A DNA stretch of 47,927 nucleotides. It comes from a virus. The number at the start of each line of letters is the position of its first letter. Within the stretch, counting starts at the first letter, position 1. The notes beneath the pieces were generated by a model. It saw nothing but the letters and a program-made list of their open reading frames with translations. It was not told where the DNA came from and ran no database searches. The translations under genes were made by a program, and so were the position numbers. This document shows positions 5,862 to 44,434 of the stretch, piece after piece. The stretch is taken from the IMG/VR virus record IMGVR_UViG_3300027720_000010, positions 1 through 47,927 of that record; one strand, 5' to 3'.

Positions 5862-5869
5862 TATTTATT
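5862..5869 (+). promoter_or_regulatory. TATTTATT promoter-like motif
   Basis: Ends 4 nt before the ATG at 5874; a second copy (TATTTATA) lies at 5836-5843. Confidence 0.5.
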
Positions 5870-11953: not shown

Positions 11954-12784
11954 TTATATTTCTTGTAATTGTTCTTGTTTCATTAACTCATATGCTCTTG
12001 CAAGACGAGTCATTCCAATTCCTCCACCAAAACGAGGGAAGAAATCAAATGATAAAAACTCCTCAAGTTCTTTTTCAACTCTTTCTTTTCCAAATAATTC
12101 AAAAAGTTTATTGGCATATCCACCATTTTCAATTGTGTAGAACATTTCTTTCATTTTTTCCACATCACAACTTCTTTCGGCTGAACCAATTGTTTCTTGA
12201 CCGTACATAATCACATCAACTTTATTGAAGATTCCATTTGTTCCGTGTTGCATGTTCCAAAATGGGTTGGTTCTTAGTGGGAAATGTTGGAGAGATACTA
12301 CCGAACCTTTCTCTTTCCACATTCTCTGTTCGTGCTCATCTTCCAAAATAGATACTCCACCATATTCAGCACATACTCCTTCATATGTTTTATTAATAGG
12401 TTCATCAAAACCAAGATACTCAAGTAGTTCTTCTTCTAACTTTAACAAATCTTTCATTGTTCCCTTTGATTCAAATTCAAACATTGGGAAGATTAATTCG
12501 TGACGACCAGGAATTGGATTTTTTTCTTGACGATAAGAAGTTGATATACAATAAACTCCTTCCCACTCAGGATTTTTCAATAATTCATATTCTAGCCACA
12601 TTTGTCCTGTTTGTGGTAATGGCCAAATTTCACCCTTATACTCAAATGTTGTGATTGAGTGTGGATTTTCACATGCGGCAAGAATTGATAATCTTGATTG
12701 TGTTGGAACTTCTTTAAATCCTTTTGATTGGAAGAATGTTCTCATTTTTTGAACTAACTCGTTGTAAACTTCTGTGTTTTTCAT
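11954..12784 (-). CDS. Class II aminoacyl-tRNA synthetase-like catalytic core (AspRS/AsnRS-type)
   Basis: The product has 276 aa. Class II motif 2 is seen as TSYRQEKNPIPGRHEL...PMFEFE (about 82-106), with Arg84 and Glu87, and motif 3 as GGGIGMTRLARA (253-264). Between them lies GQETIGSAERSCD, typical of the Asp/Asn/Lys subgroup. The N-terminal OB-fold that reads the anticodon is missing, and the protein is half the size of AsnRS or AspRS. It therefore resembles stand-alone paralogues such as asparagine synthetase A or other aminoacyl-adenylate-forming relatives. The substrate cannot be told. It may activate Asp/Asn-like amino acids for something other than normal tRNA charging. Motif 3 has TR in place of the usual DR or ER. 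Confidence 0.85.
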   Translation of the reverse strand: MKNTEVYNELVQKMRTFFQSKGFKEVPTQSRLSILAACENPHSITTFEYKGEIWPLPQTGQMWLEYELLKNPEWEGVYCISTSYRQEKNPIPGRHELIFPMFEFESKGTMKDLLKLEEELLEYLGFDEPINKTYEGVCAEYGGVSILEDEHEQRMWKEKGSVVSLQHFPLRTNPFWNMQHGTNGIFNKVDVIMYGQETIGSAERSCDVEKMKEMFYTIENGGYANKLFELFGKERVEKELEEFLSFDFFPRFGGGIGMTRLARAYELMKQEQLQEI

Positions 12785-12858: not shown

Positions 12859-12975
12859 ATGAAAATGAAATATTATAATTTATTCGCAATTTTCTTTTTT
12901 CTTTTCTCACTTTCATTAATTTTAAATATATCTATTTTTAAAAAAGTAATCAATACTTACATAATATTTATATAA
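12859..12975 (+). CDS. Very small membrane peptide (tentative)
   Basis: An ATG at 12859 opens a 38-aa frame with a single hydrophobic helix (LFAIFFFLFSLSLILNISIF) flanked by Lys residues, ending IIFI. It overlaps the promoter motif of the PPK2 gene. Composition is membrane-like, but the AT-rich sequence could produce this by chance. Confidence 0.3.
   Translation: MKMKYYNLFAIFFFLFSLSLILNISIFKKVINTYIIFI
12965..12972 (+). promoter_or_regulatory. TATTTATA promoter-like motif
   Basis: 15 nt before ATG 12988 of the PPK2 gene. Confidence 0.5.
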
Positions 12976-12987
12976 AAAAGTTTTTAT

Positions 12988-14100
12988 ATGAGAAGCCTGT
13001 TAACAGAGGTAGAAAGAATTAGACAAATGATTGGTCAACCATTAAATGAAATGGCAAAACCATCTGAGCAGTACATTAAATCTATACAGACAATTTTAAG
13101 CTCCAATGGTCTTTTAAAAAAAGAGGCCGAATCACTTCTTAATCAAATTATTGAACTTGCCGATGACCAAATTATAAATTTTGATTTGTTAGAACACGGA
13201 GTTAGAAACACATTACTTAAAAAAGGTGATAAGTATAAATCTATTGTTAAGTATTTTGAAAAAGTTCTTAGTTCTTTACAGAATAGAGAAGCAGACTCAT
13301 ATGAAATTGAGCCCGAACAAGATGATTATAGCTTTGAACCTGAGGAACCATCAATTTTAAAGAAAAAAGTATTCAGAAAAGAATTATATTATTTACAAGT
13401 GGAACTTCTTAAACTCCAAGAATGGTTAATGGAGACAGGAAAAACGGTTATAATTGTTTTTGAAGGAAGAGATTCGGCAGGTAAGGGCTCAACTATTAAA
13501 AAATTCACTGAAAATCTTAATCCAAGATATTTTAACATAATTGCTCTTGGTATTCCATCTCCTGAGGAAAGACAAGATTGGTTTGGAAGATATAAAAAAT
13601 ACATAAAACCTGGTATGATTAACTTCTTTGATAGAAGTTGGTATAACAGAGGTCTTGTTGAGCCTGTTATGGGATATGGAACAGAAGAAGAGTATGAACA
13701 TTTTATGGAGAACGTTGAAAATTTTGAAAATGAGTTAGTTGAGAAAGGAGATTATCTATTTAAACTATGGTTTTCAATTGATAAGGAGACTCAGGCAAGA
13801 AGATTTGAGATGAGACAAAAATCTCCACTAAAATATTGGAAATATTCCCCAAATGACGCTAAAATGCAAGATATGTGGGAAAGGTTCACAGAATTTAAAC
13901 AAAGATTATTTGATAAGACATCTACAATAAACCACCCTTGGATTGTATTGGATGCGAATGATAAAAAAGTATCGGGATTAAATGCAATTAGATATGTGTT
14001 ACAAAACATCCCTTACGAAAATAAAAATGAAGAGTTATTGGATAAGGAATTCCCTGAAGCAATGACCGTTTTAAAACCTGAATCAAATGAAGATAATTGA
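12988..14100 (+). CDS. ppk2: Polyphosphate kinase 2 (PPK2) with capsid-leader N-terminus
   Basis: The product has 370 aa. Residues about 125-355 form a complete PPK2 domain: Walker A GRDSAGKGS (160-168), the FFDRSWYNRGLVEPV segment (213-227) with Asp-Arg, and the lid region RRFEMRQKSPLKYWKYSPND (271-290). PPK2 uses polyphosphate to phosphorylate nucleoside mono- or diphosphates, feeding (d)NTP pools without ATP. The first 21 residues, RSLLTEVERIRQM then IGQPLNE-M, match the capsid-leader pattern of this phage, and a helical 100-aa extension follows that ordinary PPK2 lacks. I infer that the enzyme may be packaged in the head and delivered with DNA. It overlaps the next gene by 14 bp. Confidence 0.93.
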   Translation: MRSLLTEVERIRQMIGQPLNEMAKPSEQYIKSIQTILSSNGLLKKEAESLLNQIIELADDQIINFDLLEHGVRNTLLKKGDKYKSIVKYFEKVLSSLQNREADSYEIEPEQDDYSFEPEEPSILKKKVFRKELYYLQVELLKLQEWLMETGKTVIIVFEGRDSAGKGSTIKKFTENLNPRYFNIIALGIPSPEERQDWFGRYKKYIKPGMINFFDRSWYNRGLVEPVMGYGTEEEYEHFMENVENFENELVEKGDYLFKLWFSIDKETQARRFEMRQKSPLKYWKYSPNDAKMQDMWERFTEFKQRLFDKTSTINHPWIVLDANDKKVSGLNAIRYVLQNIPYENKNEELLDKEFPEAMTVLKPESNEDN

Positions 14101-26781: not shown

Positions 26782-26789
26782 TATTTATA
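26782..26789 (+). promoter_or_regulatory. TATTTATA promoter-like motif
   Basis: 14 nt before ATG 26804. Confidence 0.5.
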
Positions 26790-32071: not shown

Positions 32072-32146
32072 GCTCCCATAGCTCAACTGGATAGTAGCAA
32101 CGTTTTTCTAAAGCGTAGGTTGAAGGTTCGAATCCTTCTGGGAGTA
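32072..32146 (+). tRNA. tRNA-Arg (UCU)
   Basis: The cloverleaf is complete: acceptor GCTCCCA/TGGGAGT, anticodon stem ACGTT/AGCGT with loop TTTCTAA (anticodon TCT), T-arm GAAGG-TTCGAAT-CCTTC, discriminator A, no encoded CCA. The D-stem pairs only three bases. It reads AGA/AGG, and AGA is the commonest Arg codon in the phage genes here, which fits a codon-supply role. Confidence 0.9.
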
Positions 32147-32160
32147 CTTTTTAAATTAAA

Positions 32161-32650: not shown

Positions 32651-33274
32651 ATGGTGTTAGGAGATATTTTGGAAACGATAATTACGTCTGTTACGTCTAT
32701 TACAGTTGCATTAATCGCAGCAGGTTTTTTTAAAAAGTTTTCTGACAGAAATAAAGAAAATAGTTCTAAGAAGAAACTAGTTAAACAGATTGAGAAAGAT
32801 GAACTTGTTCATTTCACATTAAAAGAAATTAGAAGAAAATATCACGCAGATAGAATCTATATAATTCAGTTCCATAACGGAGGAATATTCTATACAAATT
32901 CTCCAATGCAAAAAGCGTCCGTTACATTTGAAAGATGTTCAGATGGACTTGAAAGAGTATCAGACCACTTAAACAATATTTTTGTTAGTCACTATACTTG
33001 GCTTATAAAACACTCTTTAAGTAATACAATGTATTATACTGATTGTGAAAATATTGAGGATGTTGCAACAAAGGCTCTACTTAGAAAGTTTGGAACACAA
33101 GGGACGGCAGCTGTTCCGATTTTTGATATACAAGAACAACTTGTATCAATTATGGTTTTGGACTGGGTGTTTAGTGAAATACCTTCAGACTTTATTAAAG
33201 ATGAGGAATTTACAGGAGAATTTAAAGACGAGTTAGTAACAGACGGCGAATCAGTTGGAAATTTGATTATTTAA
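32651..33274 (+). CDS. Membrane-anchored GAF-like protein
   Basis: 207 aa. An N-terminal hydrophobic helix (TIITSVTSITVALIAAGFF) and a basic linker are followed by about 140 residues with a GAF-like pattern: ADRIYIIQFHNGGIFYTNSP, ALLRKFGTQGTAAVPIFDI and QLVSIMVLDWVF. GAF domains bind small ligands or regulate partners; no effector domain is attached. A sensor at the membrane is conceivable, but the ligand is unknown. Confidence 0.65.
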   Translation: MVLGDILETIITSVTSITVALIAAGFFKKFSDRNKENSSKKKLVKQIEKDELVHFTLKEIRRKYHADRIYIIQFHNGGIFYTNSPMQKASVTFERCSDGLERVSDHLNNIFVSHYTWLIKHSLSNTMYYTDCENIEDVATKALLRKFGTQGTAAVPIFDIQEQLVSIMVLDWVFSEIPSDFIKDEEFTGEFKDELVTDGESVGNLII

Positions 33275-34026
33275 ACCCAGTGTTTTAATTCAGGGTCATT
33301 TATATTTCCGGCAAAATATCCTTTTTCTAACTCAATACTTGTATTGACCTCAGCAAATACAGTTTCACCCATAATATCTGAAAAATCATCATCACTTATA
33401 TTACCACTAGTAGAATATATCATAATAACATATGAACCATATTTTGACTCATCAATCGGTTCAAGTTCACCTAACACTTCAAGGTAGTTTAAAAGTGATT
33501 TATTAATTGATACGTAATTTTTTTGCTCAATGGAATATTCACTCCAACTTTCTTGAGTTCCTTCTCCACTGCAATCATCACAAGTTTCATATCCATCTCC
33601 GTCACATATCGGACAGTCTACATATCCATCTCCGTCACATCTATCACACGTATCACCTTCACCATCTTCACCACTACCATCACATTCATCACATTCAACT
33701 CTTTTCTCACCATCACATTCGTGACAAGCTATTGTACCATCACCAGAGCAGTTATCACAACTTTCGTCAGGATGAGATGAATCAACGTCAATTGTTGAAA
33801 AACTAAAAAGGTCTTTCTCACATCTTTCAACGACATCCTGTAAATCTCTTCCTTCTTTATATCCTTGAATTAAAAAACTTAAATATACTATTTCTTTGGC
33901 ATTCAAAGCCTTTTCAATAGGTTTTAAAAATTTATCATTTTTAATATAATAATATACTCCAGTTGCAGACGTTGATGTCTTTATGGTCGGGGCAATTCTT
34001 CTTGCTAAATTTAAAAGTTTTTGCAT
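33271..34026 (-). CDS. DnaJ-type zinc-finger (CxxCxGxG) protein without J domain
   Basis: 251 aa. At about 92-155 lie repeated CxxCxGxG-like motifs: CDNCSGDG, CHECDGE, CDECDGSG, CDRCDGDG, CPICDGDG and CDDCSGEG, the zinc-binding cysteine-rich domain of DnaJ/Hsp40. No HPD-containing J domain is present. The N-terminal part (NLARRIAPTIKTS) and C-terminal beta-rich part are of unknown kind. It could be a substrate-holding chaperone or a metal-site protein. The start lies in a bidirectional TATTTATAAATA palindrome with 34053. Confidence 0.85.
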   Translation of the reverse strand: MQKLLNLARRIAPTIKTSTSATGVYYYIKNDKFLKPIEKALNAKEIVYLSFLIQGYKEGRDLQDVVERCEKDLFSFSTIDVDSSHPDESCDNCSGDGTIACHECDGEKRVECDECDGSGEDGEGDTCDRCDGDGYVDCPICDGDGYETCDDCSGEGTQESWSEYSIEQKNYVSINKSLLNYLEVLGELEPIDESKYGSYVIMIYSTSGNISDDDFSDIMGETVFAEVNTSIELEKGYFAGNINDPELKHWV

Positions 34027-34052: not shown

Positions 34053-34964
34053 ATGAAAAGTAAAAAATTATTAAATGAAATTACCTATACAAAGTCATTG
34101 ATGGGTATAGAAGAAAATTTAATAAAGGAATCATTTGACTCTGAAGATATTTCTTCTTTGTCAAAACTAAAATCAGGCCCAATGAAATCTGATAAAAACT
34201 TTGTTATTCACCATACCGCTGGTAGAGGAAGTGCCGAACATGTTGTTGGTGTTTTAAATAACAGAACAATTGACGGTAAAAAAGTTGTTTTAGGGGTACA
34301 ATGGGTAATAGATAGAGATGGAAAAATATTCCAAACTTTACCAAAAGGACATATTGGTGCTCACATATTAAATTCAGATAATTTTTCTAGCGCTCCGAGA
34401 GGTATTAATAATACAAATAGTCAAGGAGTTGAGATTGTTGCCAAAAATGATGAAGATATTTTACCAATTCAGTGTTTGGCAACCCTTAAATTAATTAAAG
34501 GTTTGGGTTATTCTAAGGGAAACATTTATGGACATGGAGAATTAAATCCTGGTCATAGACCCAAATCTGAAGGACAAACTTGTAAATCATTTGTTTTAAA
34601 ACATTGGAATGATGATGTAGATGAACTTGAAGAAAAAATGAAAGAATCAGATTTTATGAAAGATGTTGATTCTAGTTCTGCTAAAGAGGACAAAGTTGAA
34701 AAATTATTAAACAAAATTGGACTTAAAAAACTTGCAGATATGGACTTAGATAAAGACGGTAAAAAATTCTCAAAGGAAGTATCGGATTTATTTGGTGGAA
34801 AAAAGGACAAAGATGATGAAAAAGAAGAAGATGATGATGATGATGAAGGAATTTTTAAAGATGTGTTTGGAATTTCTCTTGGTGACTTGGTAAAAAAAGC
34901 AAAAAAACTTTTTGAGCAACAATTAAAAGAAGATATACAAAGAATGAAAAAACCCCTTAAATAA
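34053..34964 (+). CDS. Leader-bearing N-acetylmuramoyl-L-alanine amidase (amidase_2)
   Basis: 303 aa from ATG 34053. The leader KSKKLLNEITYTKSLMGIEE then NLIKE-S matches the second leader style and ends at I-K-E. Residues about 48-180 form a type-2 amidase/PGRP domain: VIHHTAGRGS (His53/54), VQWVIDRDGKIFQTL, SQGVEIVAKND, and YGHGELNPGHRPKSEGQTC with zinc ligands His168 and Cys177. This enzyme cuts the amide bond between MurNAc and L-Ala. The C-terminal 120 residues are acidic and helical. A leader on a cell-wall enzyme suggests delivery from the virion. Confidence 0.9.
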   Translation: MKSKKLLNEITYTKSLMGIEENLIKESFDSEDISSLSKLKSGPMKSDKNFVIHHTAGRGSAEHVVGVLNNRTIDGKKVVLGVQWVIDRDGKIFQTLPKGHIGAHILNSDNFSSAPRGINNTNSQGVEIVAKNDEDILPIQCLATLKLIKGLGYSKGNIYGHGELNPGHRPKSEGQTCKSFVLKHWNDDVDELEEKMKESDFMKDVDSSSAKEDKVEKLLNKIGLKKLADMDLDKDGKKFSKEVSDLFGGKKDKDDEKEEDDDDDEGIFKDVFGISLGDLVKKAKKLFEQQLKEDIQRMKKPLK

Positions 34965-34975
34965 GGGGTTTTTTT
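34948..34975. terminator. Bidirectional terminator
   Basis: AAAAACCCCTTAAATAAGGGGTTTTTTT, after the amidase (+) and just beyond the tmRNA 3' end (-). Confidence 0.85.
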
Positions 34976-34978
34976 AAT

Positions 34979-35366
34979 TGGTGGAGGTGCGGGGAGTCGA
35001 ACCCCGGTCTTGCTCATACGGATTAATAAGGACTACACGCTTAGGTTAATGATGGTTCTCACCATTCCAAAATATTCCGTTTAGATTACCCTTCCATAAC
35101 GGACAAACAAGGGTTTGTTTCTTTTTGGGTAGAAACCACACCACTACTACGACTTCTGTTCCAAGGTTAGTGTCTGCCGACCCGTTTTGTAGGCTAATCC
35201 TAGATTAGGCTACTGATACTTCTTCAGTGCGGATGAAACCGAGTGTCTGAAGTTTTGCAATTGTATTGCCATTTAACTTTTGTGACCATAGATTAAAGTG
35301 ATAGGAAACATTTCACTGCGTGCCCCGATTAACAAGTTATGCCAATCAATTCCAAAGAACACCCCC
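34979..35366 (-). ncRNA. ssrA: tmRNA (ssrA)
   Basis: The tRNA-like ends are complete. The 5' acceptor GGGGGTG (35366-35360) pairs with the 3' CACCTCC near 34982-34988, followed by A-CCA, and the T-arm is CGGGG-TTCGACT-CCCCG. About 388 nt separate the ends, typical for tmRNA. A tag frame starting at a GCA resume codon (35258-35256) reads AKLQTLGFIRTEEVSVA then TAA (35207-35205), if read in this frame. The tag ends -SVA, not the usual -LAA or -VAA. Its upstream TATCTTTG box is a host-type -7 element. tmRNA rescues stalled ribosomes and tags their products for destruction. Confidence 0.85.
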
Positions 35367-35386
35367 ATATTTCAAATAACGTGATA

Positions 35387-35417
35387 CAAAGATATAAATA
35401 GTTTATTGCTATTCCAA
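35387..35417 (-). promoter_or_regulatory. Host-type promoter of the tmRNA gene
   Basis: On the minus strand: TTGG at 35417-35414, a 19-bp spacer, then TATCTTTG at 35394-35387. The mature tmRNA begins about 20 nt downstream, which leaves a short precursor leader. Confidence 0.6.
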
Positions 35418-35418
35418 G

Positions 35419-35426
35419 TATTTATT
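35419..35426 (+). promoter_or_regulatory. TATTTATT promoter-like motif
   Basis: 14 nt before ATG 35441. Confidence 0.45.
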
Positions 35427-35440
35427 TAAAAAAGTTTTTA

Positions 35441-36514
35441 ATGTCTTTATACAAAGCACTCATAGATTTTAGGGATAATGATAATGACCCAATGTGGATT
35501 AAACAAGAAGACACAGATGACATTGTCAGAGTTAGAAGTATAAATAAAACTAAAAGAGGTAAGTCATTACTTTATTTGGATTTTGATAATGAGACCTATG
35601 TCAAAATGTTTACCGATGCAGATGGTAGAGAAAATAACAATTCTTTCTTAATTAATGTTGCACTTGGAAGAGGTTATTATGGTGATTCCGTTTTTATTGA
35701 CACTTATTATTTTGGTGATGAAGAAATGAAAGAGGGAATGATTTTTAGATATTTTTCAAATGAGAATATCCAACTTTTAAAGAAGATTTTAAGAATTGCC
35801 GCTCCAAGTCTATTAACCAAAATGGAAGATAAGTATGATGAGATTGGAAGATGGTTAATGTCAAATTTTGAAAGTAATGCAAACGAAATTGCTTCAGTTT
35901 ATGGGTATGAATATGACTTGGCACTTATTCAAGGATTAAGACAATACATAAATCAAAAATTTTGTAATGTATTTACACCATACGGTATAATTGAAAAAAC
36001 TTGTGCTTCAGAATATTATACAACAGTTGATAATTTGATTAGATTTTGGGATGATTCAGGTGCTGATAAAGAATTATCTATTACTGAAATGTTTAAATTT
36101 TTTATATTAAAAGAAGGACTTGAGTTAGATGAAGATTTATATGATGACTATTATGCCTATTATGACAATGCAAACTTTGACCAAATGAATTTTGATAGAA
36201 CAGTAGATAGAGAATTAGAATCTATACTTGAAAAACTTGAGGAGCAGCAAGAAGAAGGAACACTTGCTCTAAATCTTGAAATATATGAATTTTTGAGTAA
36301 ACAACAATATCAATTTGATGAGTGGTATCCACAAAAATCTGAAAAAACGTTTGGTAAAGTTGAAAAAAACATGGGTGAAATCAATTACTTTAAATTTAAA
36401 GATTTGTCTGACGGAGAAGTTATTGTTTTATTTCAAACACCTTCAGGAGTCAAAAAAAGTAGTATGGATTTGGAAAAATTAAAATTATTTCTTTACCATC
36501 CTGAGCTTTTTTAA
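35441..36514 (+). CDS. Hypothetical protein
   Basis: 357 aa, divergent from the tmRNA. It is highly acidic and rich in Tyr and Phe, with no hydrophobic segment. The first 130 residues look beta-rich (SLLYLDFDNETYVKMFTDAD, VFIDTYYFGDE), the middle is helical and the C-terminus (DGEVIVLFQTPSGVKKSS) is a small beta domain. No family recognised. Its position between a tmRNA gene and a peptidase gene is noted. Confidence 0.8.
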   Translation: MSLYKALIDFRDNDNDPMWIKQEDTDDIVRVRSINKTKRGKSLLYLDFDNETYVKMFTDADGRENNNSFLINVALGRGYYGDSVFIDTYYFGDEEMKEGMIFRYFSNENIQLLKKILRIAAPSLLTKMEDKYDEIGRWLMSNFESNANEIASVYGYEYDLALIQGLRQYINQKFCNVFTPYGIIEKTCASEYYTTVDNLIRFWDDSGADKELSITEMFKFFILKEGLELDEDLYDDYYAYYDNANFDQMNFDRTVDRELESILEKLEEQQEEGTLALNLEIYEFLSKQQYQFDEWYPQKSEKTFGKVEKNMGEINYFKFKDLSDGEVIVLFQTPSGVKKSSMDLEKLKLFLYHPELF

Positions 36515-36525
36515 GAAAGTCTTTG

Positions 36526-36533
36526 TATATTTG
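36526..36533 (+). promoter_or_regulatory. Host-type -7 element TATATTTG
   Basis: TATATTTG, 18 nt before ATG 36552; the TTTG box 19 bp upstream is not clear. Confidence 0.55.
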
Positions 36534-36551
36534 TCAACAATTAAATAACAA

Positions 36552-37364
36552 ATGAAAAATCTTGATTTTTTTAAGAAACTGCTTTCAGTTCCAACCTACA
36601 CTTACCACGAAGACAAAATGATTGCATTTCTTGAGAGTCATTTGGAGTCCAAGGGATATGAACATTATACCGATGAATACGGAAATGTTTATGTAACCAA
36701 AGGTACCCTATCTGAAGGTGAGAATTACCCTTGTGTTGTTGCCCACACTGATACGGTTCACAAACTTGACACAATTAATGTTTTTGAGGAAACCCTTCCG
36801 AATTCAAAAGGAGAAGATTCGCTATGTCTTAAAGCATATAATGATTTTGATGAACCAACAGGAATTGGTGGTGATGATAAATGTGGTGTTTTTGCTTGTC
36901 TTGAGCTTCTTGATAAGTTTGATGTGATTAAAGCGGCATTCTTTGTATCAGAAGAAATTGGTTGTATTGGTTCAAAAAACGCTGATGACAGATTCTTTGA
37001 TAATGTTGGATATGTTATTGAGTTTGACGCACCAGGTGACTACATGGTTACCCATTATTGTTTCGGGGTTAAGTTATATGACCAAGATTCAGAGTTTTTT
37101 GAAAAAACTAATAAAGTATTAACAGAACATATGCTTGGAACACCTCAATACATGGTTCACCCTTATACCGATGTATACGCTCTGAAAAAGAAGTATGATT
37201 TTGCTTGTATCAACTTCTCAATTGGTTATCACAACTATCACACAAAAAATGAATATGTGTGTGTTGAAGAAGTTGAGGCGGGAATCAAATCAGGTGAAGA
37301 ACTCATTAAGTCTTTGGGTAAGGTCAAGCACCATTTTGACCACCCATCAAAAGTTAATATATAA
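36552..37364 (+). CDS. M20-type metallopeptidase (PepT/aminopeptidase-like)
   Basis: 270 aa. Metal-binding motifs occur in the right order: VVAHTDTVH (His65), GIGGDDKCGV (Asp108/109), FVSEEIGCIGS (Glu134-135), EFDAPG (Asp159) and GYHNYHTKNEYV (His227). This is the di-zinc exopeptidase plan of M20/M28 enzymes such as PepT. The length is well below the usual 370-410 aa because the lid/dimerisation domain is missing. It would trim short peptides in the cytosol. It has a host-type promoter and stands next to the ClpC-like gene, facing it. Confidence 0.85.
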   Translation: MKNLDFFKKLLSVPTYTYHEDKMIAFLESHLESKGYEHYTDEYGNVYVTKGTLSEGENYPCVVAHTDTVHKLDTINVFEETLPNSKGEDSLCLKAYNDFDEPTGIGGDDKCGVFACLELLDKFDVIKAAFFVSEEIGCIGSKNADDRFFDNVGYVIEFDAPGDYMVTHYCFGVKLYDQDSEFFEKTNKVLTEHMLGTPQYMVHPYTDVYALKKKYDFACINFSIGYHNYHTKNEYVCVEEVEAGIKSGEELIKSLGKVKHHFDHPSKVNI

Positions 37365-37389
37365 AAAAAGGGGATTACTCCCCTTTTTT
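37363..37389. terminator. Bidirectional terminator
   Basis: AAAAAAAGGGG ATTA CTCCCCTTTTTT between the convergent genes 36552 (+) and 37375 (-). Confidence 0.85.
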
Positions 37390-39423
37390 CTTTCTACTCT
37401 TAGTTTTTTTCTCTGTTAGTTGTTCTTCACAAATAACATTCTCCTCCTCCATTCTGATTGTGTACGGTTTTTCTTCTTTGATGTTTCCTTTGAGCACTTC
37501 ATCAGAAATATAGTCTTCTAATTTTTCTTGAATTGCTCTTTTAAGTGGTCTTGCTCCGTATACTTCGTCAAATCCAACTTTGGAAACAAAATCAATTACA
37601 GATTGGTCAAATGTAATGTTAAGTTTAATACCGGAAAGTCTATTAGATAATTTGTTAATTTCAACCATAACAATCTTTTTAACATCCTCATTCCCCAATG
37701 TGTTAAACACAATAATTTCATCGAGTCGGTTGATAAACTCAGGTGCAAAATAGTTTTTGAGTTCCTTATTTAACATTTGTTTTTTGAGTTCTTGGTCGGC
37801 ATAAACATTACTTGATTTACCAAAACCAATACCTGCACCAAAATCTTGCATTTTTTTAACCCCAATGTTAGATGTCATAATGATAAGACAATTTTTGAAG
37901 TTGATTTTTCTTCCAAAACTATCTGTCATGTAACCTTCATCCAAAAGTTGCAAAAGTGATGAGAAGATGTCTTTGTGAGCCTTTTCAACCTCGTCAAATA
38001 ACACCACCGAATAAGGTTTTGTCTTAACCTGTTCGGTTAGTTGACCCCCTTCCTCATATCCAATATAACCAGGAGGAGCTCCAATAAGTCTTGAAACTGA
38101 GTGTTTCTCTTGAAACTCACTCATATCAACACGAATCAGATTTTCTTCGCTACCAAATATTTGTTTTGCAAGTTCCTTAGCAAGTAATGTCTTACCAACA
38201 CCTGTTGACCCAAGGAATATAAATGAACCGATTGGTTTGTTTGGGTCTTTGATACCAAGTCTATTCCTACGTATAGATTTTGCAATTGTTTTGATTGCCT
38301 CAGGTTGACCAATTACCGACTTCTCTAAACTTTCTTCCAAATTTATCAAATTCTTTGTATCATCCAAAGAAAGTTTGTTTACAGGAATTTTGGTCATAAT
38401 CGACACTACATCGTAAACTAGTTCGATTGGGATATCCTTTCTTTTTGTTTGGAGGTCTTGCTCAAATTTATTTCTTTCAATATCCAACTGAGACAATACT
38501 TTCTTTTCTCTATCTCTAAGTTGAGCCGCCATTTCATAGTTTTGTTTTTTAACAACGAGAAGTTTTTCTTCACGAATTTTTTGAGATTCTTTTTTAAGTT
38601 CCTCAATAATCTCAGGATTCTTAACATCCACTTGAGCTCTTGCCCCTACCTCATCCAAAATGTCAAAAGCCTTATCAGGGAATTCTCTGTCTGTAATATA
38701 ACGGTCGGCAAGTTCAACACAAGTTTGAAGAATTTCATCTGTATAATTTACTTTGTGGTGAGCCTCATACTTATCCTTCACATTGTTCAAGATTTGTAAA
38801 GTTTCCTCCTTGGTTGAAGGTGAAACAATTACCTTTTGGAATCTTCTGTCCAATGCCCCGTCCTTTTCAATGTTCTTTTTAAACTCATCCAAAGTGGTTG
38901 CTCCGATACATTGAATCTCTCCGCGAGAAAGTGCTGGCTTTAAAATGTTAGATGCGTCAAGTGAACCTGAGGCGTTACCTGCCCCAACGATTGTATGAAT
39001 CTCATCAATAAAAAGAACCACATTTGGATTATTTTGAATTTCTTCAATAATAACTTTTAATCTCTCTTCAAATTGACCCCTATATTTTGTGCCAGCAACA
39101 ATTGAATTTAAGTCCAAAGACAAGATTCTTTTTTCTAAAAGGTTTCTTGGGCAATCCCCTTGGAATATCTTCATTGCAAGTCCCTCAACAATTGCGGTTT
39201 TACCACAACCTGGTTCACCAATAATAATTGGATTATTTTTCTTTCTACGAGAAAGAATTTGAGCGATACGAATAATTTCTTGTTCTCGACCAACAACAGG
39301 GTCAAGTTTATTTTCTTCAGCTAATTTAATTAGGTCTCTTGAAAAGTTATCCAAAACAGGAGTCTGACTATCGGTAGATTGTCTTGGTTTATTTTTCTTT
39401 CCGTCATCCATTGAATCTGTCAT
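37375..39423 (-). CDS. clpC: ClpC/ClpA-type AAA+ unfoldase without N-domain
   Basis: 682 aa with two AAA+ domains: Walker A1 GEPGCGKT (69-76), Walker B1 VVLFIDE, Walker A2 GSTGVGKT (405-412), and a second Walker B VVLFDEVE. A short M-domain with a UVR-like motif (NYEMAAQLRDREKKV) lies between, as in ClpC. A GIGFG loop at 531-535 carries the IGF tripeptide that docks on ClpP. The usual N-terminal adaptor domain of about 145 residues is missing; the protein begins with a short charged tail. It would unfold proteins and feed them to host ClpP with altered substrate choice. A Lys-rich tail follows. Confidence 0.93.
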   Translation of the reverse strand: MTDSMDDGKKNKPRQSTDSQTPVLDNFSRDLIKLAEENKLDPVVGREQEIIRIAQILSRRKKNNPIIIGEPGCGKTAIVEGLAMKIFQGDCPRNLLEKRILSLDLNSIVAGTKYRGQFEERLKVIIEEIQNNPNVVLFIDEIHTIVGAGNASGSLDASNILKPALSRGEIQCIGATTLDEFKKNIEKDGALDRRFQKVIVSPSTKEETLQILNNVKDKYEAHHKVNYTDEILQTCVELADRYITDREFPDKAFDILDEVGARAQVDVKNPEIIEELKKESQKIREEKLLVVKKQNYEMAAQLRDREKKVLSQLDIERNKFEQDLQTKRKDIPIELVYDVVSIMTKIPVNKLSLDDTKNLINLEESLEKSVIGQPEAIKTIAKSIRRNRLGIKDPNKPIGSFIFLGSTGVGKTLLAKELAKQIFGSEENLIRVDMSEFQEKHSVSRLIGAPPGYIGYEEGGQLTEQVKTKPYSVVLFDEVEKAHKDIFSSLLQLLDEGYMTDSFGRKINFKNCLIIMTSNIGVKKMQDFGAGIGFGKSSNVYADQELKKQMLNKELKNYFAPEFINRLDEIIVFNTLGNEDVKKIVMVEINKLSNRLSGIKLNITFDQSVIDFVSKVGFDEVYGARPLKRAIQEKLEDYISDEVLKGNIKEEKPYTIRMEEENVICEEQLTEKKTKSRKKKGE

Positions 39424-44395: not shown

Positions 44396-44427
44396 AAACC
44401 CCCTCTAATAAAAGGGGGTTTTTTTGT
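44396..44427 (+). terminator. Rho-independent terminator
   Basis: AACCCCC...GGGGGTT stem followed by T7, separating the head gene set from TerL. Confidence 0.85.
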
Positions 44428-44434
44428 ATTTATA
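44427..44434 (+). promoter_or_regulatory. TATTTATA promoter-like motif
   Basis: 12 nt before ATG 44447, directly after the terminator T-run. Confidence 0.5.

Follow-up and report, generated by a model that had tools for sequence, protein, structure and literature searches.

Why a phage should carry a transfer-messenger RNA (tmRNA) of its own is an old question, dating from the first cases. It arises again in IMG/VR record IMGVR_UViG_3300027720_000010, a separate virus record of 47,927 bases analyzed here at its full length (the window), in which a tmRNA gene, a gene for a PepT-like peptidase, and a gene for a ClpC-like unfoldase occupy positions 34979–39423. An original prediction had read this cluster as a possible tag-and-degrade module. 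We found that in the large clade to which the window belongs, the tmRNA tag is protein-selected and unlike the tags of the likely hosts, and that a motor potentially able to read it is kept next to the tmRNA. This arrangement suggests a virus running its own tag-and-destroy route for proteins. Since the record probably represents part of a larger genome, genes missing from it could be located elsewhere. Its relatives are IMG/VR sequences, which yielded 103 distinct peptidase/Clp pairs with the window counted in. DNA-level relatives of the tmRNA region were also sought in annotated phages, and no real ones were found there.

A conserved tmRNA with a protein-selected tag

The tmRNA (ssrA) gene is a one-piece gene of 388 nt with an encoded CCA, located at 34979–35366 on the minus strand. 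It matches Rfam family RF00023 at 79.4 bits, above the gathering score of 47, and the tmRNAs of its relatives score 66–134 bits. The RF00023 covariance model aligns with the gene from end to end, with pseudoknots PK1–PK4 as putative features of the RNA; ARAGORN missed the gene at default settings and recovered it at a relaxed threshold. Compensatory changes that keep the pair occur in 31 of the 54 consensus pairs in an alignment of tmRNAs from 20 relatives, and the G3–U70 alanine identity pair and the TψC stem of the tRNA-like end are kept in both the window sequence and this alignment. Signals for separate transcription flank the gene. The window sequence contains an upstream promoter (35387–35417, minus strand) of the Bacteroidota form TTG-N20-TATCTTTG, and an intrinsic terminator, AACCCCTTATTTAAGGGGTTTTTT, can be read immediately after the CCA (34946–34971, minus strand). 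A similar promoter motif precedes the tmRNA in most relatives, and comparable hairpins lie downstream of it in most of them.

The tag reading frame spans 35205–35270 on the minus strand and was assigned with the aligned tags of about 85 relatives. It encodes the 21-residue tag GNTIAKLQTLGFIRTEEVSVA, followed by a stop codon, and the unusual -SVA ending given in the original prediction is correct, the last four residues being VSVA. The tag is read from the resume codon GGC after UUAAAU. ARAGORN instead puts the start at AKLQ; we prefer the earlier codon because the relatives, like Bacteroidota, resume at GGC or GGA after a UAAAN-like stretch. Throughout the clade, the phage tags are 21–22 residues long and all end in VA (for example, GNVINKLSAVGLIRTEENVSVA). 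Across 50 distinct tag sequences, nonsynonymous relative to synonymous polymorphism (pN/pS) is 0.47 in the tag frame, whereas the other two frames give 0.89 and 1.82; Lys6, Gly11, and the final Val and Ala are invariant, and Arg14 is nearly so. The clade tags are thus under protein-level selection, and the RNA that carries them is structured and conserved. The Rfam score, the compensatory changes, and the frame-specific selection rule out a dead gene or one arising by chance, and the functional tmRNA half of the mechanism considered below is well supported.

The tags sampled from Bacteroidota are of a different kind. From 25 genomes, 24 tags could be called, all of 9–10 residues and ending in LAA or MAA; ten residues is also the commonest tag length in a recent database paper (PMC11915505). 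A search of 84,980 genomes for a host copy of the phage tag, made as exact matches to the IRTEEVxVA codon pattern, gave no match. Long tags were found in several phage groups, whether or not a Clp is present. The idea that they form an amphipathic helix was rejected, as their hydrophobic moments are not above those of shuffled sequences.

A group I intron (RF00028) interrupts the T-loop of the tmRNA in five close relatives (L002:14416–14642, L003:4313–4539, L008:7175–7405, L012:8371–8601, and L014:14394–14624), while the window copy is free of it. The tmRNA T-loop is already known as an intron site in bacteria (PMC11915505).

A ClpC-like unfoldase and a lidless peptidase

The unfoldase gene lies at 37375–39423 on the minus strand (phrog_4871) and encodes two AAA domains according to Pfam. 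Its best PDB match is Staphylococcus aureus ClpC (736 bits), with which it also aligns through the region of the ClpC-type middle domain. Since the alignment begins only at ClpC residue 149, the N-domain is absent; the protein is therefore filed as ClpC-like rather than ClpC, which has an N-terminal adaptor-binding domain. The predicted IGF loop for docking on ClpP was found as AGIGF, and an [IVLM]GF loop is present in all 85 distinct phage Clp proteins compared. In the same 85 proteins, one of which is represented by an intein-bearing piece, both pore loops and the Walker motifs are near-invariant. Among related unfoldases, Escherichia coli ClpA without its N-domain still degrades ssrA-tagged proteins. 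Leptospira ClpA minus its N-domain is reported to retain nucleotide-induced oligomerization and to show increased ATPase activity (PMC12493166).

The 80 best bacterial relatives of the window Clp are all Bacteroidota ClpC proteins, with identities of 54–58%. Because these relatives and the tmRNA promoter form are both Bacteroidota-like, the host of the window phage and its clade is probably a member of the Bacteroidota.

In one relative (L165:10825–16360, minus strand), the Clp gene is split at each of its two Walker A motifs by intein-like pieces, with endonuclease-like frames between them, in a 'fractured gene' layout. Introns and inteins at the tmRNA and Clp genes fit the constraint on these genes, because such elements favor conserved sites.

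The peptidase gene (36552–37364, plus strand; phrog_4191) encodes the catalytic domain of a PepT-like M20/MH-clan metallopeptidase. Pfam gave M20, M28, and M42 matches near the cutoff, the best PDB sequence matches are to peptidase T, and the AlphaFold2 (AF2) model superimposes on the peptidase T structure 3gb0 with a template modeling (TM) score of 0.75. The metal-binding and catalytic residues His65, Asp67, Asp108, Glu134, Glu135, Asp159, and His230 are invariant in 28 relatives. The lid/dimerization domain is missing: the enzyme has 270 residues, compared with 373–417, and the 71 residues from Asp159 to His230 leave no room for a lid. By sequence and modeled fold, the enzyme is nearest to peptidase T, and tripeptidase activity is predicted at most. 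The tmRNA, lidless peptidase, and N-domain-less ClpC-type unfoldase are accordingly as the original prediction had identified and placed them, on the evidence of Rfam, Pfam, PDB, and fold comparisons.

Conservation of the neighborhood

The original prediction drew its functional link from proximity, and this proximity recurs in related phages. The peptidase and Clp genes are on opposite strands in 102 of the 103 distinct pairs, separated by a median gap of 98 bases, with Clp identities of about 64 to 95% across these loci. Several genes are inserted between the two in some relatives, and the order is still kept. In all 56 loci that extend 4.5 kb or more past the peptidase, the tmRNA, peptidase, and Clp remain together, with the tmRNA on the Clp strand. 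Related phages with the three genes scattered were looked for and not encountered. About a hundred relatives share the group of all three genes, which is therefore not due to chance.

In some relatives, further parts of the trans-translation and Clp systems are phage-encoded. Eight contigs of one subclade encode SmpB at 0.45–2.2 kb from the tmRNA; SmpB is also present in the genomes G011, G012, and G067, while ClpP was found in G006, G067, and G069; the two occur together in G067 (261 kb) and G069 (308 kb). By eye, the catalytic Ser, His, and Asp motifs are kept in the ClpP sequences of the relatives. The 294-kb relative G003 has neither SmpB nor ClpP, and host proteins would have to serve there.

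The peptidase search also reached the cultured Cellulophaga phages phi38:1 and Calle_1, which are unrelated to the clade. Their tmRNAs score 86–88 bits and lie about 1.3 kb upstream of the homologous peptidase on the same strand; that of phi38:1 (NC_021796.1, 26803–27164; L322:6321–6682) is unannotated. Read from a GGA resume codon, the tag is GNNTNAVNAQIEANMEAVNAILNLEVAVGV, with 30 residues, and ARAGORN places its start later. With its host Cellulophaga baltica, phi38:1 offers a cultured system with a homologous peptidase and a long-tag tmRNA. A 636-kb metagenomic huge phage likewise has a tmRNA (LR756504.1, 280507–280863; L333), with the 24-residue tag DNVNSFEQSILNELFAPVEMAVAA. Proximity of peptidase and tmRNA recurs once outside the clade, and a general coupling of the two in phages was rejected, since the peptidase-bearing Bacillus phage PJN02, Enterococcus phage VRE9_2, and Klebsiella phage phiKpS2 have no tmRNA. 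The huge phages LR745206 and LR756502 carry Clp homologs with no recognizable tmRNA alongside.

A tag-and-degrade route and its alternatives

The best explanation of the locus as a whole, to which we give an even chance, is that the phage tmRNA tags stalled proteins, the phage Clp and ClpP degrade them, and the peptidase trims the products. The phage would bring along an RNA for trans-translation and a ClpC-type unfoldase to deal with stalled or truncated proteins made during host takeover. With the G3–U70 pair kept, the tmRNA would be charged by the host alanyl-tRNA synthetase and brought to ribosomes by SmpB, which may be that of the host for the window tmRNA and would be the phage protein in some relatives. 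Stalled ribosomes would then be freed, and the 21-residue phage-specific tag would be added. The VSVA end may act as a small hydrophobic C-terminal degron. Having no N-domain to bind adaptors, the phage Clp would take hold of tags of this kind directly, with its two pore loops. Docking by the IGF loop on host ClpP, or on phage ClpP where it is encoded, would lead to degradation of the tagged protein, and the peptides set free would be trimmed to amino acids by the PepT-like peptidase. We infer the recognition of the tag by the phage Clp from conservation, the docking loop, and the location; the pairing with ClpP and the part of the peptidase are likewise proposed. We advance more tentatively a specific form of this explanation, an orthogonal quality control in which the long degron would be preferred by the N-domain-less phage ClpC over the host unfoldases, and during infection protein turnover would move to ClpP proteolysis under phage control, with recycling of the peptides.

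The module proposed in the original prediction gains support from the conserved co-localization, the phage-specific protein-selected tag, and the SmpB and ClpP genes of relatives. Several findings weigh against it. The block up to terL (the terL to ktsc genes) is as syntenic as the three genes, so proximity and synteny alone do not prove a functional unit. The tmRNA, peptidase, and Clp are not co-transcribed, as the tmRNA lies between a promoter and a terminator of its own and the peptidase is on the other strand; a single-operon model was rejected on the strand layout and the terminator. The peptidase family is widespread in many phages without a tmRNA or Clp, and in LR756504 the peptidase and tmRNA are about 131 kb apart. 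No ClpP or AAA_2 unfoldase was found in phi38:1 and Calle_1, despite their long tag. Neither SmpB nor ClpP was found in the 48-kb window record, and both are absent from most records examined, which are often fragments.

Much of this evidence fits an alternative that we consider possible, although doubtful, in which the three genes are independent helpers within a syntenic block. The tmRNA would rescue ribosomes, the Clp would help in takeover or in assembling virions, either as a chaperone or as a protease, and the peptidase would recycle amino acids or serve lysis, with the tag not feeding the phage Clp. Separate transcription, the equal synteny of the flanking block, and the occurrence of peptidase and Clp homologs alone in other phages all agree with this explanation, and ClpA and ClpX of jumbo phages have been proposed as assembly aids (PMC7824862). 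However, the docking loop in every one of the phage Clp proteins points to proteolysis over pure chaperoning, SmpB joins the cluster in one subclade, and the tmRNA and peptidase are again close in an unrelated phage family.

It is improbable that Lon, host ClpXP, or another protease of the host reads the long tag instead, with the phage simply oversupplying trans-translation. A long tag read in this way has a precedent, as the tag of Mesoplasma florum has about 27 residues. Together with its Lon, this tag forms a known endogenous pair outside ClpXP (used in PMC10873288 and PMC9097571), and phi38:1 and Calle_1 manage a long tag with no Clp of their own. Nevertheless, the jumbo-type clade always has its own Clp beside the tmRNA, and the clade tags end in VxVA or a similar -VA sequence, unlike the sampled Bacteroidota tags. 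It is very improbable that the tag diverts rescued proteins from host degradation, freeing the ribosomes while host ClpX no longer takes the products: the tag does lack the ALAA/AMAA end of the sampled Bacteroidota tags, but its end is still small, hydrophobic, and invariant, an unfoldase with a docking loop adjoins the tmRNA, and E. coli tags ending in LVA remain degradable.

Comparison with known systems

With bacterial trans-translation (tmRNA/SmpB and ClpXP/ClpAP), the phage system shares the RF00023 tmRNA, the G3–U70 pair, the resume codon, the tag frame with its stop, the small hydrophobic end, and, in some relatives, SmpB. It differs in being phage-encoded and in having a tag of 21–22 residues with a -VA end and a conserved internal core, as well as an N-domain-less Clp and a peptidase as neighbors. 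Complete tmRNAs, some accompanied by SmpB, are known from the mycobacteriophages Bxz1 and Wildcat and from phage G (PMC4131195), from the OM43 phage Melnitz and 402 phage genomes (PMC9004378), and from huge phages with tmRNA and SmpB (PMC7162821). For Melnitz, the idea that a phage tmRNA tags proteins of the host had been raised before (PMC9004378). The window Clp has in common with ClpC (S. aureus 6em8 and the Bacteroidota proteins) the D1, middle, and D2 domains, the pore loops, and the ClpP loop, but has no N-domain and carries a short Lys-rich tail. The peptidase shares the catalytic fold and metal ligands of peptidase T (M20B tripeptidase; 3gb0 and 1fno), whereas it lacks the lid/dimerization domain and has about 14–15% identity in the structural alignment. 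Phage factors that shape Clp proteolysis include SPO1 Gp53, acting on ClpCP (PMC6873191), and ClpP, ClpS, ClpA, and ClpX in jumbo phages (PMC7824862); those are single factors, whereas here a tagging RNA and an unfoldase are encoded together.

Phage tmRNA, its combination with SmpB in huge phages, and phage ClpP, ClpA, and ClpX were thus known already, and the conserved arrangement described here is new. A literature search, with many subscription papers outside its range, met no description of a conserved tmRNA/Clp/peptidase cluster or of a clade-wide protein-selected long phage tag. The arrangement turns speculation on phage tagging and degradation into a specific, testable tag–unfoldase pairing, and long phage tags could yield new laboratory degrons.

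Other features of the window

Between the tmRNA and the peptidase lies a gene for a conserved protein (35441–36514, plus strand), with relatives of 22–87% identity at the same place. It has no Pfam or PHROG match, and its confident AF2 model (predicted local distance difference test, pLDDT, 89.5) found no PDB match for its fold. A DnaJ-type Cys-rich zinc-finger protein without a J-domain is encoded at 33271–34026 on the minus strand, the strand of the tmRNA and Clp (PF00684, 1.5e-07, just below its cutoff). It lies near the tmRNA in many relatives, although not in all, and is a possible accessory part of the cluster.

A single tRNA gene, tRNA-Arg (TCT), is located near the cluster at 32072–32147. 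Farther away, positions 11954–12784 encode a 276-residue class II aminoacyl-tRNA synthetase-like catalytic domain (PF00152), apparently without an anticodon domain, and a phage-encoded polyphosphate kinase 2 (PPK2; 1.6e-72) lies at 12988–14100. The motif TATTTATW, a possible promoter or translation signal, occurs 10–25 bases 5′ of many plus-strand genes of the window, for example at 44427–44434, 26782–26789, 12965–12972, and 5862–5869. Over both strands of the window, 45 sites were observed against 21.8 expected, and the motif also overlaps the tmRNA promoter.

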